Assembly: GCF_002161055.1 (NCBI RefSeq) | Contig: NZ_NFLT01000016.1 | Span: 1-35,062 of the forward strand | Source of the DNA: Tyzzerella sp. An114 | GTDB lineage: Bacteria > Bacillota > Clostridia > Lachnospirales > Anaerotignaceae | Reading direction: 5' to 3' | DNA length: 35,062 nucleotides | Shown: positions 15,122 to 31,252 of the stretch, piece by piece | How the letters are laid out: each line of letters starts with the position of its first letter | Position numbering within the stretch: position 1 is the first letter of the stretch | Notes under the pieces: model-generated | What the model was told of the DNA's origin: nothing | What the model saw: the letters and a program-made list of their open reading frames with translations, nothing else | The model's database searches: none | Made by a program: the position numbers and the translations under genes

Positions 15122-15913
15122 TTGAATTATATCTTGGAAATTAAAGCGTTTTACGATTGGCTCGAGGTAAATAAGTTGTCTACCGGTAGTATTGCTTTAT
15201 GGCACGCATTAATGCATATAGCTAATAAGACAGGGTGGCAAGAAAGTTTTACAGTAGCTATCGTGGTGCTTGAAATTAAGACAGGCTTGAAAAAGCAAGC
15301 CATAATTAATGCCAGAAATAGTTTAAAGCAAGCAGGTCTTATTGAGTTCTCAAGTAGAGGTGGAAATCAATCAGCTGTGTATAAAATAAATTCTCTTGTG
15401 TCTTTTAAACATACACAAACACATACACAAACAGATACACAAACACATACACAAACAGATACACAGACACATACACAAGGAGATACACAAACACATACCA
15501 TTAATAAACAAAACAATACTATACAAAACGAAACAAATATTATTTATGGTCATGATGATGATACGGGCGTGTGCGTAGAAAATAATAATATATTAAATAT
15601 ATATATACCAGAGGATATAAAAAGTCAGGTGTTCAGTTTTTCAAGATATTTGTTTTTAAGATATTTTGGGAGAAATCCTTCAGCACCTGATATTGAGTAT
15701 GTGTTTAGAAGAATAAAAGGTATTACAGGTGGTATTGATGAGAACTATAAAAATATGCTTGAGTATGCTTTTGAACAGGCACAAAAGGCTAATTGCTTGA
15801 ATATAAACTACATAAACGGTATTTTTTCTAATTTTGCCAAAAGAGGCATAGAAACAATAGAGGATTGTTATAGATTTGAGTATGAACAAGACAGAGCAAA
15901 TGGTCTTATGTGA
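15122..15913 (+). CDS. DnaD-like phage replication initiator with embedded origin repeats
   Basis: This 263-aa protein starts at a TTG, 9 nt after AAGGAGG. Residues about 5-90 are a winged-helix replisome-organiser domain (YDWLEVNKLSTGSIALWHAL, then VLEIKTGLKKQAIINARNSL). Residues about 98-125 are a low-complexity string of (T/H/D)TQT units. Residues about 175-255 are a DnaD/DnaB_2-like C-terminal domain (PSAPDIEYVFRRIKGITGGI, then INYINGIFSNFAKRGI). It would bind the phage origin and recruit the host helicase; no separate helicase or loader gene is seen. As with lambda O and SPP1 gp38, the binding repeats appear to lie inside the gene. A strong origin-initiator unit followed by SSB. Confidence 0.82.
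   Translation: MNYILEIKAFYDWLEVNKLSTGSIALWHALMHIANKTGWQESFTVAIVVLEIKTGLKKQAIINARNSLKQAGLIEFSSRGGNQSAVYKINSLVSFKHTQTHTQTDTQTHTQTDTQTHTQGDTQTHTINKQNNTIQNETNIIYGHDDDTGVCVENNNILNIYIPEDIKSQVFSFSRYLFLRYFGRNPSAPDIEYVFRRIKGITGGIDENYKNMLEYAFEQAQKANCLNINYINGIFSNFAKRGIETIEDCYRFEYEQDRANGLM
15413..15496 (+). repeat. Seven 12-bp iterons: putative phage replication origin
   Basis: Seven contiguous 12-mers follow ACACAAACACAT: units 1, 3 and 7 are identical, units 2 and 4 are ACACAAACAGAT, unit 5 is ACACAGACACAT and unit 6 is ACACAAGGAGAT. Alternation gives a 24-bp higher-order period. An AT-only stretch at about 15579-15607 could be the unwinding element. The repeats translate to a simple TQT-rich linker between the two domains of the initiator, so selection is likely on DNA. 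Confidence 0.7.
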
Positions 15914-17105: not shown

Positions 17106-17162
17106 AAAAATGATATATTTCACATTACATATTAATGAGATTTAAAAAGTAAAAGGGAGCTA

Positions 17163-17220
17163 CCGCCCCCATAGAATGAACATATTTATTATACCATATT
17201 TAATTAATAACAGGGGGCGG
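17163..17220 (+). promoter_or_regulatory. GC-rich inverted repeat overlapping the late-regulator ribosome binding site
   Basis: CCGCCCCC (17163-17170) and GGGGGCGG (17213-17220) are perfect complements 42 nt apart, striking in DNA this AT-rich. The 3' arm is itself the Shine-Dalgarno of the TTG-started regulator at 17228, so pairing would hide it. The loop is AT-rich and could hold a promoter (TATTAT near 17188). Confidence 0.5.
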
Positions 17221-17227
17221 ATTTTAT

Positions 17228-17752
17228 TTGAACAATAAAGATTATAAATCTATAAAAGAAAGAATTAATAAGTATTACAAAGATAAAAAAGCCTTAAATT
17301 TAAACTACATACGACTTGAAGGACTTAACAAAAAACTTTTTGATATAGAAAAAGAAATTAATAATCCTATATTTACCGCCTCTTTAAATACAGATTTAAA
17401 AGCTGTAAATTATGATAGTATTTATGTAAAAGGTGGAAGTCCTTCAAGTCCTATTGAAAATGAAATTGAAAACATATACAGGGCATATGAAAAAGAAAAA
17501 GTAAAAATATTAAATGAAATATATTTAACCAAAAAACTTATATATGAACTTGAAACAAATACTGAAAGGTTTGATTGTTATATTGGTATGCTATCAAGTG
17601 AAGCCAAAACAATAATTGAAATGGTATTTAAAAAAGGTATGAGTATAACTGCAACTGCTTTAAATATTAATATGTCAAAGTCTTCAGTAAGTAGAAAAGT
17701 TGAGGTTATCACAAAAGATATACTTCTTTTATGTGATAACTATAATATTTAA
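17228..17752 (+). CDS. Late-gene transcriptional regulator (sigma-region-4/ArpU-like)
   Basis: This 174-aa protein starts at a TTG after GGGGGCGG. Residues about 1-110 are charged helices. Residues about 120-165 form a sigma-70-region-4-like HTH (LSSEAKTIIEMVFKKGMSIT, then ATALNINMSKSSVSRKVEVI). Proteins of this size and position, immediately before terS, are the late activators of Firmicute phages (ArpU, RinA or DUF1492-like). They turn on packaging, head and lysis genes. Directly downstream are the phased repeats, the -10 box and the terminator at 17762-17918, the natural target. Its ribosome binding site lies in a GC-rich inverted repeat, which may delay its translation. Confidence 0.75.
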   Translation: MNNKDYKSIKERINKYYKDKKALNLNYIRLEGLNKKLFDIEKEINNPIFTASLNTDLKAVNYDSIYVKGGSPSSPIENEIENIYRAYEKEKVKILNEIYLTKKLIYELETNTERFDCYIGMLSSEAKTIIEMVFKKGMSITATALNINMSKSSVSRKVEVITKDILLLCDNYNI

Positions 17753-17761
17753 AAAAAACGT

Positions 17762-17840
17762 GCAACAAAATGGAACGTTTACGGAACAATTTGGAACAAA
17801 AGTGGGAAAAAAACGCAACAAAATGGAACAAAAATGGGAA
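17762..17840 (+). repeat. Helically phased array of eight G(G/C)AAC-like motifs before terS
   Basis: Motifs start at 17762 (GCAAC), 17772, 17783 and 17793 (GGAAC), 17804 (GGGAA), 17815 (GCAAC), 17825 (GGAAC) and 17836 (GGGAA). The steps are 10, 11, 10, 11, 11, 10 and 11 bp, mean 10.6, equal to the B-DNA turn. A-rich tracts between them are phased the same way, so the DNA is probably bent. The 15-mer GCAACAAAATGGAAC occurs at 17762 and 17815, 53 bp (five turns) apart. Confidence 0.75.
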
Positions 17841-17855
17841 AAAATATATTTTAAA

Positions 17856-17866
17856 TGTAATATAAT
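17856..17866 (+). promoter_or_regulatory. Late-promoter -10 box lacking a -35
   Basis: TATAAT (17861-17866) stands 20 bp after the last phased motif. The expected -35 position (17838-17843) reads GAAAAA, with no match to TTGACA. A perfect -10 without a -35 and with repeats immediately upstream is the pattern of an activator-dependent promoter. Confidence 0.5.
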
Positions 17867-17886
17867 AGTTATTGTAAAGAATTAGG

Positions 17887-17918
17887 GAACAGGGAATTTA
17901 AAATCTCTGTTCTTTTTT
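17887..17918 (+). terminator. Intrinsic terminator between the late promoter and terS
   Basis: GAACAGGGA (17887-17895) pairs with TCTCTGTTC (17904-17912), with one G-U pair and an 8-nt loop, then six Ts (17913-17918). It lies only about 15 bp after the predicted late transcription start and 37 bp before terS. It could stop early transcripts or a short leader pending antitermination. Confidence 0.8.
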
Positions 17919-17954: not shown

Positions 17955-18413
17955 ATGTCAAATAATAGAGGCGGTAGACCGCCTAAATATAAAAACAGAG
18001 AGGAAATACAAATTTTAATAGATAAGTATTTTGATGAATGTAATGGAATTCCTTATTTAGATGAGCAAGGAAAGCCTGTTATGACAGAGAAAGGTGATAT
18101 AGTATATAAAAAATTTCCTAAACCCCCAACTGTAACAGGATTAGCTTTAGCACTGGGGTTTAATAGTCGTCAAGGATTATTAAACTATCAGGGAAAAAGA
18201 GAGTTTAATGACACGATTACGCGAGCAAAAACATATATAGAGGAATATGTAGAACAAAGACTTTTTGACCGTGAAGGTGTACAAGGTGCTAAATTTAGTT
18301 TGATAAATAATTTTAAAGGTTGGTCAGATAAGCCTAAAGACAATTCAGAGAAAGAGGTCATTGAAAGACTTGATAATATCCTGGAGGGAATTAACAATGC
18401 AGCTAAGCAGTAA
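17955..18413 (+). CDS. terS: Terminase small subunit
   Basis: This 152-aa protein begins RGGRPPKYKNREEIQILIDK, and an HTH-like PTVTGLALALGFNSRQGLLN lies at about 55-75. YIEEYVEQRLFDREGVQGAK follows, then a C-terminal FSLINNFKGWSDK segment typical of phage small terminases. TerS recognises the packaging site and regulates the large subunit. It is the first late gene, overlaps the large-subunit start by 17 nt and is preceded by AGAGAGGTGG. The phased repeats upstream could be its binding site instead of, or as well as, an activator array. Confidence 0.85.
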   Translation: MSNNRGGRPPKYKNREEIQILIDKYFDECNGIPYLDEQGKPVMTEKGDIVYKKFPKPPTVTGLALALGFNSRQGLLNYQGKREFNDTITRAKTYIEEYVEQRLFDREGVQGAKFSLINNFKGWSDKPKDNSEKEVIERLDNILEGINNAAKQ

Positions 18414-19608
18414 ACAGAAAGAATTTTGGAATAATGCTAATAAACGTTGGAATATAAAATCAGGTGCTACACGTTCCGGAAAAACATATTTAGATTACTA
18501 TATTATACCTAAAAGAATAAGAGAAGTTTCTGGAAAAGAAGGACTTGTCGTTATAATGGGAAATACAAAAGGTACACTCCAAAGAAATATTATTGAGCCT
18601 CTACAAAATATATATGGTACTTTTTTAGTATCTGACATACATTCTGATAATACAGCTTTTTTGTTTGGTGAAAAATGCTATTGTTTGGGAGCAGATAAAA
18701 TAAACCAAGTGGATAGGATAAGAGGTAGTTCTATAAAATATTGTTATGGTGATGAGGTTGTTACATGGCACGAGGATGTTTTTAATATGCTTAAATCAAG
18801 ACTAGATAAAGAGTACAGTAAGTTTGATGGAACGTGCAACCCTGATAATCCAAATCATTGGTTTTATAAATTTTTAAAAAGTGATGCTGATATATATTTA
18901 CAGGAATATACTCTTGATGACAATATTTTTCTTCCAAAGAGTTTTATAAATAATTTAAAGAAAGAATACTTTGGAACGGTGTTATACGACAGATATATAT
19001 TAGGTAAATGGGCATTAGCTGAAGGGCTTATATATAAAATATTTGCTGATAATACTGAAAGTTTTATTATATCTAAATCTAAAATCCCAAAAAGATTTGA
19101 TAGTATAAATATAGGTCATGACTTTGGCGGTAATAAATCAAATCACGCTTTTGTTGCCACAGGTATTTCTTTTGATAATCATATGTATAAACTTAGAGCA
19201 AAAAGTATAAAGGCTACAGGAATGAGTTTTAACGAGTTGGAAATAGAGTTTATAAATTTTGTAGAGGGTATTATAAGAGATTATGGTTATCCTGATGGTA
19301 TTTACTGTGATAGTGCAGAACAAACTATGATTAACAGTTATAGACAACATACAAATTATCCTATATATAATAGTATCAAAAAACCTATAAATGACCGTAT
19401 ACGCTGTACATGTCTTCTTATGGGAAGTGGTAGATACCATATTGTTGAAAATGAATGTAATGACCTTATAAATGGATTAAAAACAGCTGTGTGGGATGAT
19501 AAAAGTTTGGATGATAAACGTCTTGATGATGGAAGTAGTGATATAGATATATTGGATGCTGATGAGTATAGTTTTGAATATAATATTTATAAACTTATAG
19601 GGAGGTGA
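18397..19608 (+). CDS. terL: Terminase large subunit
   Basis: The start is the ATG at 18397 after GGAGGG, giving 403 aa; a longer frame starting inside terS has no site. The ATPase domain has Walker A SGATRSGKT (residues 22-30) and a Walker B-like IKYCYGDEV (about 110-118). The nuclease domain has Asp242 in IGHDFGGNKS and Asp305 in YCDSAEQTM, typical RNase H-like metal ligands. It drives DNA into the prohead and cuts concatemers, in the PBSX/XtmB-like branch. The length is in the normal range of 400-450 aa. Portal follows by 8 bp. Confidence 0.93.
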   Translation: MQLSSKQKEFWNNANKRWNIKSGATRSGKTYLDYYIIPKRIREVSGKEGLVVIMGNTKGTLQRNIIEPLQNIYGTFLVSDIHSDNTAFLFGEKCYCLGADKINQVDRIRGSSIKYCYGDEVVTWHEDVFNMLKSRLDKEYSKFDGTCNPDNPNHWFYKFLKSDADIYLQEYTLDDNIFLPKSFINNLKKEYFGTVLYDRYILGKWALAEGLIYKIFADNTESFIISKSKIPKRFDSINIGHDFGGNKSNHAFVATGISFDNHMYKLRAKSIKATGMSFNELEIEFINFVEGIIRDYGYPDGIYCDSAEQTMINSYRQHTNYPIYNSIKKPINDRIRCTCLLMGSGRYHIVENECNDLINGLKTAVWDDKSLDDKRLDDGSSDIDILDADEYSFEYNIYKLIGR

Positions 19609-28807: not shown

Positions 28808-31252
28808 ATGGCACAGTATGACGGTAGTATAAGAATTGATACAAGGGTAGATACATCAGGTTTCAACACAGGTGTATCTGCTGTTTCAAGAGGTTTTTCG
28901 GCAATAATAAGTGCTGCCTCTGCTGTCGGAATTGCATTAAGTGCAGCTTTTGTTGTAGATAAAATTATTGAGTTTGGAAAAGAAGCTGTTTCTTTGGCAT
29001 CTGATATGCAAGAGGTTCAAAATGTTGTTGAAACAGCTTTTGGAAGTATGTCTTATAAATGTGAAGAATTTGCAAAGACATCTATTGAAACATTGGGTAT
29101 GAGCAAATTGGCGGCTAAACAATTTTCATCTACATACATGGCAATGGGCCGTGGCTCAGGCATGGCTTTAGAGGAAGCTGCTGACATGGCTTTAGGTGCT
29201 ACAAAAAGAATTGGAGATATAGCCTCTTTTTATAACAAATCTTTTGAAGAAGTCGACACAATGCTTAAATCTATATGGACAGGAGAGACAGAAAGTTTAA
29301 AGGAAATAGGCGTTGTTATGACACAGGCAAATCTTCAACAGTTTGCTTACACACAAGGTATAAACAAAAAAATATCCGCTATGACGCAGGCTGAACAAAT
29401 TCAACTAAGATATGCCTATGTAATGGAGCAGACAGCACTTGCAGAGGGTGATTTTGCTAAAACTTCTGACAGTTGGGCAAATCAGACAAGAATATTATCA
29501 GAGCGTTGGAAAGAGTTTTTATCAATTGTGGGAAGCGGACTTATAGAAGTTTTATTGCCTTTTGTAAAGTTTTTAAACAGAATATTAGAAATACTTATAT
29601 TGATAGCTGAGGGAATAGGGTATATTTTCTCTATTATTACAGGTAAAAACCCAAATGATGATACTGACAAACTAGGTCAATCCATAAAGGATTTATCAAA
29701 CTCTGCCGGAAGTGCTGCTGAAAATGAAAATAATTTAGCTGACGGAATTAATTCTGCTGCAAAAGCGGCAAAAAGTGCTCTTGCACAGTTTGACCAATTA
29801 GACGTTTTACAGCGGGATTTAGGTTCTTCTGGTGGTAACGGTAGTGGCAATTTTGATTATGACGGTAATGATTTTGACTTAGATTTTGGTTTTGATGATA
29901 TTGACACAGATTTAGATGAAATAGATTATAAGTTTGATAATTTTTTAATAGGATTAAAAGATAAAATTAAAGAGTTTGAAACTGTTCCTGTGTTTGTGCC
30001 ACAGCCAATATTTGCCCCTTTGCCTGACCCTATTTATAATCCTAATTGGGGATTGGATTTGCCTATAATTTTAGACCCTGTTTTTCAGCCTATACCAAGT
30101 CTTATATATAACCCAAACTGGGGACTAGAGGTGCCAAAGGTAGAAGCTCCAATTTTTCCACCTATACCAATCCCTATATATAACCCAAACTGGGGACTAG
30201 AGGTGCCAAAGGTAGAAGCTCCAATTTTTCCACCTATACCAATCCCAATATATAACCCAGATTGGGGACTAGAGGTGCCAAAGGTAGAAACACCAATTTT
30301 TCCACCTATACCAATCCCAATATATAACCCAGATTGGGGACTTAATAATTCTCTTGCTGCTGAGAGTTTATTGGTATTAACAACTTTAGGTTTGTTAAAC
30401 ACAGGGTTGCAAAATAATTTAATAGCTATGGAATTAAGTTTCCAAAATGCAGCTAAGGTTATAACCGAAGCGATAAATGGTGCTGACACAGCTATAAGTG
30501 CAGCTTTAGGAAATATATCAACTAATGTTTCTACAACAAAAGAAAATATTTCAGGATATTTTGAAAATTTATATATAGCTGTGGTTAATGATATGGAACA
30601 AATGAAAGCCTCTGTAACTACATCTGTATATGAGACCTGTTCAAATATTATGTCGAATATGGGAATTGCCTTGGAAGGAATTGATGAGACCGTTGTAAAT
30701 TGGGTTAATTCAACAGCCTCTAATTTTGTTATATGGGGAACTGGTGTTGTTAATACTGTTTATGAAGCGGCTGTTGGAGTTAGAGATACATTTGTCAGTG
30801 GTTTAAAATCTGCCTGGGAAAGTTTTGTAAGTTTTATAGAGGCTACTGGCGAAAAAGCCGAAAATGTTTGGAGTGAGCATAAAACAGCAATTATAACAGC
30901 TGCTGCTATAACGGGAGCTGTTGCAGTTACTGCTGCTGTTATAGCTTCAGGAGGTTCTCTTTTACCTGCATTAGCTGCCGTTCCTATGCTTGCTGAGGGA
31001 GCTGTTATACCACCAAACCAAGAATTTTTAGCTATTCTGGGTGACCAAAAATCAGGAAGAAATATTGAAACACCTGAAAGTCTTATACGTCAGATTATGA
31101 GAGAGGAAATGGAAGGTTTTATGGGGGTTGGAAGTGATTTTACGGTTGATATGCCTGTATATTTAGACGGAGAGGTTATTTATAGAAATGTGCAGAGGAT
31201 AAGCAGAAGACGTGGAAAAAGCCTTATAACGGGAGGTGTTATTGATGATTAA
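28808..31252 (+). CDS. Tape measure protein with proline-rich tandem repeats
   Basis: This 814-aa tail length protein has the TMP start GSIRIDTRVDTSGFNTGVSA. A conserved region at about 60-220 follows (MGRGSGMALEEAADMALGAT, then WANQTRILSERWKEFLSIVG), with hydrophobic segments at about 250-280 and 695-735. Residues about 395-513 hold five 24-aa proline-rich units (IYNPNWGLEVPKVE, then PIFPPIPIP) in place of the usual coiled coil. The C-terminus ends near MGVGSDFTVDMPVYLDGEVI. AAAGGAGG precedes the ATG. At about 814 aa it predicts a tail somewhat over 100 nm by the usual 0.15 nm per residue rule, if the repeats are extended. Confidence 0.9.
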   Translation: MAQYDGSIRIDTRVDTSGFNTGVSAVSRGFSAIISAASAVGIALSAAFVVDKIIEFGKEAVSLASDMQEVQNVVETAFGSMSYKCEEFAKTSIETLGMSKLAAKQFSSTYMAMGRGSGMALEEAADMALGATKRIGDIASFYNKSFEEVDTMLKSIWTGETESLKEIGVVMTQANLQQFAYTQGINKKISAMTQAEQIQLRYAYVMEQTALAEGDFAKTSDSWANQTRILSERWKEFLSIVGSGLIEVLLPFVKFLNRILEILILIAEGIGYIFSIITGKNPNDDTDKLGQSIKDLSNSAGSAAENENNLADGINSAAKAAKSALAQFDQLDVLQRDLGSSGGNGSGNFDYDGNDFDLDFGFDDIDTDLDEIDYKFDNFLIGLKDKIKEFETVPVFVPQPIFAPLPDPIYNPNWGLDLPIILDPVFQPIPSLIYNPNWGLEVPKVEAPIFPPIPIPIYNPNWGLEVPKVEAPIFPPIPIPIYNPDWGLEVPKVETPIFPPIPIPIYNPDWGLNNSLAAESLLVLTTLGLLNTGLQNNLIAMELSFQNAAKVITEAINGADTAISAALGNISTNVSTTKENISGYFENLYIAVVNDMEQMKASVTTSVYETCSNIMSNMGIALEGIDETVVNWVNSTASNFVIWGTGVVNTVYEAAVGVRDTFVSGLKSAWESFVSFIEATGEKAENVWSEHKTAIITAAAITGAVAVTAAVIASGGSLLPALAAVPMLAEGAVIPPNQEFLAILGDQKSGRNIETPESLIRQIMREEMEGFMGVGSDFTVDMPVYLDGEVIYRNVQRISRRRGKSLITGGVIDD
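30003..30345 (+). repeat. 72-bp tandem repeats inside the tape measure gene
   Basis: The TTGGGGA/CTGGGGA landmark recurs at 30047, 30119, 30191, 30263 and 30335, exactly 72 bp apart. Copies 2 to 4 are nearly identical in DNA, including silent sites, so duplication is recent. The unit encodes 24 aa, keeping frame and changing tail length in fixed steps. Confidence 0.85.

Follow-up and report, generated by a model that had tools for sequence, protein, structure and literature searches.

A helically phased array of −35-like motifs as the probable late-promoter operator of a phrog_36 regulator, with a terminator-like hairpin in the late leader

Direct repeats lying just past the activator's own gene are already known as binding sites of phage late activators, namely Alt, Ltr and RinA, described in the main text of PMC13123087 and the available text of PMC9867676. 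Alt of Lactococcus phage TP901-1 binds four imperfect direct repeats, from −76 to −32, and Ltrs generally bind four imperfect repeats (PMC13123087, main text). At Staphylococcus phage phi13, promoter activity is abolished by deletion of the repeats, by mutation of the TATA box or by loss of ltr (PMC13123087, main text). For RinA, the binding site is a DNA region of repeats that lies upstream of terS (PMC9867676, available text). Here we analyse a prophage in a stretch of 35,062 nucleotides from Tyzzerella sp. An114 (contig NZ_NFLT01000016.1, positions 1 to 35,062; hereafter the window), in which eight TGGAAC-like motifs, spaced by one helical turn each, stand between the gene of a candidate late activator and the −10 element of a late promoter. 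Compared with the known repeat promoters, this array is a variant of greater length and high regularity. Judging from its sequence and from related loci, we consider it very probable that the array is the late-promoter operator, bound by the phrog_36 regulator encoded just upstream.

Between the stop of the regulator (17752) and terS (17955) lie the array, a TATAAT element, and then a hairpin with a run of T (Table 1). The motifs start at 17762 (GCAAC), 17772, 17783 and 17793 (GGAAC each), 17804 (GGGAA), 17815 (GCAAC), 17825 (GGAAC) and 17836 (GGGAA), in steps of 10, 11, 10, 11, 11, 10 and 11 bp. As aligned 11-mers, the units are TGCAACAAAAT, TGGAACGTTTA, CGGAACAATTT, TGGAACAAAAG, TGGGAAAAAAA, CGCAACAAAAT, TGGAACAAAAA and TGGGAAAAAAT. 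The intergenic stretch was given a motif-blind chain score, with a 6-mer seed and steps of 10 or 11 bp. It reaches 17, against a mean of 5.8 and a maximum of 10 in 1,500 dinucleotide shuffles; the same stretch scores 5–9 at any other pair of steps between 7/8 and 16/17. Among 684 other 202-bp tiles of the window, both strands included, the sole near rival (score 16) is a coding repeat at 15409–15498. This 12/24-bp repeat encodes a Thr-His-Thr-Gln run of a DnaD-like protein. The eight phased motifs and their steps had been called from the letters alone in an original prediction, and they are exact. As it also stated, the array ends where a −35 element is expected and TATAAT follows, at 17861; the best match to TTGACA before it, at spacers of 15–19, is three of six positions.

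The A tracts that had been noted along with the motifs are equally present, with runs of at least four A in six of the eight units. They could bend the DNA in phase and alone activate the promoter, the motif itself being read by no protein. However, the GC-richer arrays of three related loci (L036, L053 and L060) keep their phase without internal A runs, as judged by eye, so intrinsic bending as a conserved property does not hold. The motifs moreover vary with the recognition helix of the regulator. We regard activation by bending alone as highly improbable.

The original prediction had left room for a second reading, in which the array is the pac or cosB packaging site bound by TerS. The array does adjoin terS, and packaging sites can be phased repeats. 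This reading fails on the evidence of L002/L011, a sister prophage from Candidatus Fimicola merdigallinarum, because the sister keeps the C-terminus of the regulator, the array, the −10 element and the hairpin with a TerS of another family. The last 92 residues of its regulator are 99% identical to those of the window protein, the contig starting inside the gene. Its array has ten motifs; a 21-bp insertion amounts to two units and two turns, and the phase is retained. DNA identity between the window and L011, with a few substitutions, spans the array, the −10 element and the leader hairpin and ends right after the T run. TerS of L011 belongs to Terminase_2 (PF03592, 6.3e-42), that of the window to GP3_package (PF16677); the two terL genes also have different best matches in Pfam, though Terminase_3 is matched by both. 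With the packaging genes changed, the regulator, array, promoter and leader hairpin have thus been kept as one set, independently of TerS. In L030, L031 and L032, the array precedes differing first late genes, which by eye are ParB-like in L031 and L032, and the motif follows the recognition helix of the regulator. A TerS-binding site is, in our estimate, very unlikely indeed.

A search for the same phasing at related regulator loci, which the original prediction had proposed, finds it repeatedly. Regulators 37–40% identical to that of the window have arrays of their own, after the gene or at its end. The motifs are GGGAC and GGGAA in L004 and in L032/L033, and GAAAC, GCAAC and GAGAC in L006 and in L030/L031; where the regulators were found by the family profile, they are TGCAA in L022/L028 and GCGAC in L029. 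Arrays above all shuffles (40 each) follow the regulator in ten of 19 nearer relatives, among which L030/L031 and L032/L033 are close pairs. Loci with cut or broken regulators (L008, L010, L024 and L026) and duplicate places (L009, L014–L017 and L019) were left out of the 19. By eye, the number of units differs by two between L006 and L030, and by one 10-bp unit between L036 and L090. The phase is kept in these changes, but duplication of whole units alone would do likewise. In L030/L031 (2995–3615), the array lies inside the reading frame of the regulator, whose C-terminus is ..KQNETKLQQNETILQQNETKLG; the 21-bp pair of units makes seven codons there.

The phased layout extends to the wider family. 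Of 291 genomes in a sample of the class, 107 contain phrog_36 (E 1e-12). We scored 89 loci, namely 30 loci and the next 60 places of a longer listing, minus L037, a near copy of L036; G662:C44, a listed place that lacks a locus, was left out. At steps of 10/11 bp, 23 of the 89 have arrays above all 40 shuffles. The count is 14 at 9/10 (exact 10-bp steps being counted under both 9/10 and 10/11), four at 11/12, and one to three at each of the remaining pairs from 6/7 to 17/18. In the same loci, 10/11 arrays were found at 10 of 29 regulator ends and at 5 of 157 control ends, which are those of other open frames of at least 110 codons on both strands; the control counts are flat over the step pairs. 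At L145, eight units all stand exactly 10 bp apart.

The regulator of the window matches the phrog_36 profile over residues 1–171 and is encoded directly upstream of the promoter and terS. In NCBIfam it matches TIGR02937 only (1.2e-4; 21.8 bits against a cut-off of 42.9), and RinA (TIGR01636) and ArpU (TIGR01637) remain unmatched in that search. Its model, with a predicted local distance difference test score of 82.7, shows a long helical hairpin and a C-terminal helix-turn-helix. The top PDB matches in Foldseek include −35-binding domains of sigma factors (E 0.26–1.4, target template modelling score 0.67–0.80), together with coiled-coil proteins. The sigma-4 chains 8jzt (SigF, root-mean-square deviation 0.6–0.8), 3hug, 3vfz and 2o8x align with the C-terminal domain. 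SigF is also the best match in a PDB profile search (E 0.0059), and the viral fold matches include ‘Sigma-70, region 4’ proteins (E 5.5e-4). The regulators of L036 and L053 match the sigma70 model for extracytoplasmic function (ECF) factors, sigma70-ECF, at 1e-6 and 8.8e-8, below its cut-off. In the predicted fold, the C-terminal domain is like that of sigma region 4, which binds the −35 element; a match to region 2, which binds the −10 element, or to a full-length sigma factor was not found, the N-terminus being modelled as a helical hairpin and sigma70-ECF staying below cut-off. The −35 elements of ECF sigma factors have GGAAC and TGAAAC as cores.

The motif changes with the helix that would read it. 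Over 25 chosen array-bearing or array-like loci, including L035, L038, L040 and L151 (not above shuffles), similarity in the eight residues of the recognition helix correlates with similarity in the motif (partial r 0.37, corrected for the rest of the protein); none of 5,000 permutations is as high, in a test that leaves some relatedness among the loci. The helices DRTTVYRW (L034) and DRTTIYRK (L028) belong to proteins whose identity elsewhere is about 11%, and TGCAA repeats accompany each of them: helices of the form DR(T/V)T(V/I)YR pair with TGCAA. L038 (DARTVRRW), 60% identical to L034 elsewhere, stands by TGTCC, so that helix and motif change together; the arrays of L034 and L038 are both short, with scores that do not exceed the shuffle limit. 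The arrays of the relatives and this correlation support the idea, already part of the original prediction, that the upstream regulator would bind the array before a promoter without a −35 element.

How far, then, does the window depart from the described systems? It shares with promoters of the Ltr and Alt type the direct repeats between regulator and −10 element, eight in place of the published norm of four (PMC13123087, main text). The claim that no array of this form had been described has to be withdrawn, given the published repeat binding by Alt, RinA and Ltr (PMC13123087, main text; PMC9867676, available text) and the TP901-1 repeats one turn apart. TP901-1 resembles the window in its regulator gene directly upstream and in a G-rich motif with an A/T run at each turn. 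By eye, its repeats TGGGTCAAATT, TGGGATAAAAA, CGACACGAAAA, AGGCACGAAAT and TGGAGTGTTGC follow in steps of 10, 11, 11 and 11; they are four or five and degenerate, whereas the eight of the window are regular. Alt belongs to another PHROG, phrog_2198, with weak similarity to phrog_36 (0.005). The TP901-1 leader also differs: from the late promoter to terS, it contains genes for tRNA-Lys and for a tRNA-Ala-like RNA (L064, 2135–2376). In the leaders of L022 and L027–L029, tRNA-like GGTTCGATTCCC stretches occur at a similar place and are not called as tRNAs. RinA of Staphylococcus phage phi11, like the window protein, belongs to phrog_36 (1.9e-38, against 4.4e-11). Right after rinA stand TTGGCAGTAA and AGTGGCAGTT, 10 bp apart, then TATGAT, a leader hairpin with a T run, and terS. 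Unlike the window, phi11 has only two clear repeats, not above shuffles, and its RinA is distant from the window protein, which leaves the RinA and ArpU models of NCBIfam unmatched. At phi13, we take phi13_25 as Ltr because the gene ends in the described 18-bp repeats. The phi13 promoter P23 has a leader hairpin, as in the window, and repeats needed for activity (PMC13123087, main text), yet the phi13 regulator falls in phrog_1058 and has no phrog_36 match.

Besides the relatedness left in the helix–motif test, several points weigh against an operator of the proposed kind. No array above shuffles was found in nine of the 19 nearer relatives, in 66 of the 89 phrog_36 loci, or in 15 of 21 tested viral loci, these 15 being 25–33% identical to L036 (the other 25 of the 46 viral loci are 24 at 88–100% identity to L036 and one 21-residue fragment). 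Either the phased layout would be common and not universal, or the chain score misses short or degenerate arrays. Some true arrays are probably missed, because TP901-1, with its published Alt site, does not pass: its score of 8 equals the highest shuffle score, also 8, and phi11, at 6, stays below its maximum of 7. Some of the 89 phrog_36 genes may also not be late regulators. The phrog_36 match of the window regulator is weak, no NCBIfam family lies above its cut-off, and Foldseek gives no PDB fold match at E 0.001, the best being 0.26. At phi13, the TCGGAC chain runs in 9-bp steps within 18-bp repeats and has no helical phasing. Unphased copies in relatives had been named beforehand as telling against the array; those of phi13 are of this sort, and belong to another family, phrog_1058.

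For the operator, we propose the following mechanism. The sigma-region-4-like helix-turn-helix would read one TGGAAC-like, −35-like motif per helical turn and, since one motif is read at each turn, copies of the regulator would line up next to one another along a single face of the DNA. The last copy, at the place of the missing −35 element, would hand a TATAAT-only promoter to the host RNA polymerase. The number of units would set the cooperativity, giving a sharp early-to-late switch. BldC of Streptomyces, a small helix-turn-helix protein, is reported to form cooperative multimers on direct repeats (PMC5859096, available text). This is the kind of binding proposed here, although BldC is MerR-like and not sigma-4-like, and is no phage late activator.

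Table 1 Features around the phased array, in window positions.
Feature	Position	Strand	Remarks
Late-gene activator candidate, 174 aa, TTG start	17228..17752	+	phrog_36 4.4e-11, fold model
Regulator domains (predicted)			Long helical hairpin at the N-terminus; sigma-region-4-like helix-turn-helix at the C-terminus (residues about 124–171)
Eight-motif array (TGGAAC-like), in steps of one helical turn	17762..17840	+	
Last motif GGGAA	17836..17840	+	At the usual −35 place; starts 25 bp before the −10 element
−10 element TATAAT, late promoter	17861..17866	+	Compared with −10 elements of relatives
Leader terminator	17888..17918	+	Hairpin of −7.6 kcal/mol at 17888–17911, followed by C and six T
terS, first late gene, GP3_package family	17955..18413	+	PF16677 6.5e-16, phrog_606
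terL, PBSX-type large terminase	18397..19608	+	TIGR01547 3.6e-34, phrog_2

Upstream in the prophage are genes for a tyrosine-recombinase-like integrase, RecT, the DnaD-like loader, a probable SSB (by eye) and YopX; from 17228 onward the order is regulator, terS, terL, portal and head genes. An 814-aa protein, by position and size probably the tape measure protein, has a proline-rich run encoded by a 72-bp tandem repeat (3.6 copies, 30081–30342). Searches of annotated phages with the regulators of the window and of L004 as queries gave no matches; the TerS search gave 20 records. Upstream of the regulator gene, an inverted repeat (17164–17221) is formed by CCGCCCCC and by GGGGGCGG, which follows about 40 nt on, at the Shine-Dalgarno of the regulator. 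Such a repeat, with arms of 6–10 bp, also occurs in L012, L030, L032, L004, L006, L022 and L028; one of the same form was not seen upstream of the regulator in L036, L060 and L053. By an alternative local pairing upstream, the first arm also makes a terminator on the antisense strand (17155–17170). The inverted repeat may control translation of the regulator. The late leaders of L004, L006, L030 and L032 contain GCCCCC, complementary to the GGGGGC Shine-Dalgarno of the regulator, which hints at feedback by the short leader RNA; the window leader lacks it.

A terminator-like hairpin stands between the promoter and terS. It begins about 15 nt past a transcription start that we place near 17873, and late polymerases must pass it because of where it stands. 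Among the 89 phrog_36 loci, an intrinsic terminator, called by sequence, is found within 300 bp past the regulator stop in 63 on the sense strand and in 16 on the antisense strand, with 11.2 expected from shuffles. Terminators occur at 22 of 29 regulator ends, against 32 of 157 ends of other frames. Within 130 bp past the array, they are present at 24 of 33 array-bearing loci in sense and at three in antisense; the 33 are the 23 phrog_36 positives with L001, L002, L004, L006, L022, L028, L029, L030, L032 and L112. In a listing of 33 loci, the hairpin of 14 starts 23–33 nt past the start of the −10 element, which would give a leader RNA of about 45–60 nt. Five have no hairpin within 200 nt of the −10 element, and in the rest the distance is 17–108 nt. 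The hairpins of phi13 and phi11 come 38 and 70 nt after the −10 element. Most of the leader hairpins considered (13 aligned, 19 folded) were picked since they fold, and their folding is in itself no proof. No known RNA family reached its gathering threshold in the leaders of 14 loci, except for the TP901-1 tRNA.

The hairpin may be the terminator of the early operon, set downstream of the late promoter, past which strong late transcription leaks; to this we give an even chance. The early genes end with the regulator, and the array of many loci begins within about ten bases of the regulator stop, so near that no room is left for a terminator upstream of the promoter. The window hairpin is weak. 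However, hairpins of −16 kcal/mol or stronger, as at 21 of the 89 loci, should block the late operon too.

In phage lambda, the gene of Q, its promoter pR′, the promoter-proximal terminator tR′ and the late genes come in that order. By sequence, the window shares this order, with a promoter-proximal terminator before the late genes; to our knowledge, lambda Q uses no upstream phased array. The shared order is a hint, short of proof, that these activators also bring polymerase across the leader terminator. The regulator would then be, additionally or chiefly, a Q-like antiterminator, loaded at the array and taking RNA polymerase past the hairpin. Judged on the sequence evidence, we find this possible and, on the whole, somewhat doubtful. 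The recurring order of regulator, promoter, terminator and late genes speaks for it, as do the excess of sense terminators over antisense and shuffled ones and the presence of terminators in phi13 and phi11. So do L030 and L031, whose near-identical promoters are followed by different hairpins at nearly the same place. At phi13, late expression needs the promoter (PMC13123087, main text) despite the hairpin and T run downstream, so polymerases do get past it. The phi13 reporter described there, with a stated limit of +50, would end about at the T run, and read-through of the intact terminator therefore probably lies outside that assay. On the other side, no Q family is among the Pfam, PHROGs and NCBIfam matches of the regulator, and at −7.6 kcal/mol the window hairpin may be read through passively. 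Terminators are lacking within 300 bp at 26 of the 89 loci and within 130 bp at nine of the 33 array-bearing ones, and TP901-1 has its hairpins about 400 bp or more downstream, after the tRNA genes. Nor did a −10-like pause element stand out at the lambda spacing.

A lambda-like sigma-dependent pause was rejected, TANNNT pairs not being raised at offsets 11–19 in 28 loci chosen as array-bearing or array-like, including L035, L038, L040, L151, L046, L122, L127 and L142 (not above shuffles). In the same set, a second TANNNT occurs at offset 5 in 16 loci (null mean 4.1) and at offset 8 in ten (null 1.2), both above all 300 shuffles, and at offset 10 in six (null 1.2, null maximum 5).

In the proposed mechanism, the leader terminator would thus act as a second gate after the operator, passed either passively, for which the chances are about balanced, or with the aid of the regulator, which we hold to be less than probable. 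The fullest form of the proposal, in which phrog_36 proteins are sigma-4-only regulators that form a one-face filament on phased −35-like sites and then ride RNA polymerase past the leader terminator, seems to us rather unlikely and is put forward tentatively.

Within the literature searched, the array length, the phasing rule and the frequent intrinsic terminator after the promoter are new. No leader terminator, recognition-helix correspondence or helical-phase rule came up in that search; the primary papers on RinA, Ltr and Alt lay outside its scope, so part of this may be in print. In the main text of PMC13123087, the words terminator, antitermin, hairpin, stem-loop and helical are all absent; terminator, direct repeat and helical were not found in the available text of PMC9867676.

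If the fullest form were true, it would be a Q-like late switch of Firmicutes phages with no detectable similarity to Q, which a published reporter could miss. The leader terminator, present in phi11 and phi13 too, raises the question of whether these activators serve in initiation alone or in antitermination too. The array points to a rule that holds for part of a large family of phage regulators: −35-like motifs, one per turn, stand straight after the regulator gene, and the motif varies with the recognition helix. By this phasing rule, operators and helix–motif pairs of uncharacterised phages would become readable from their sequence.
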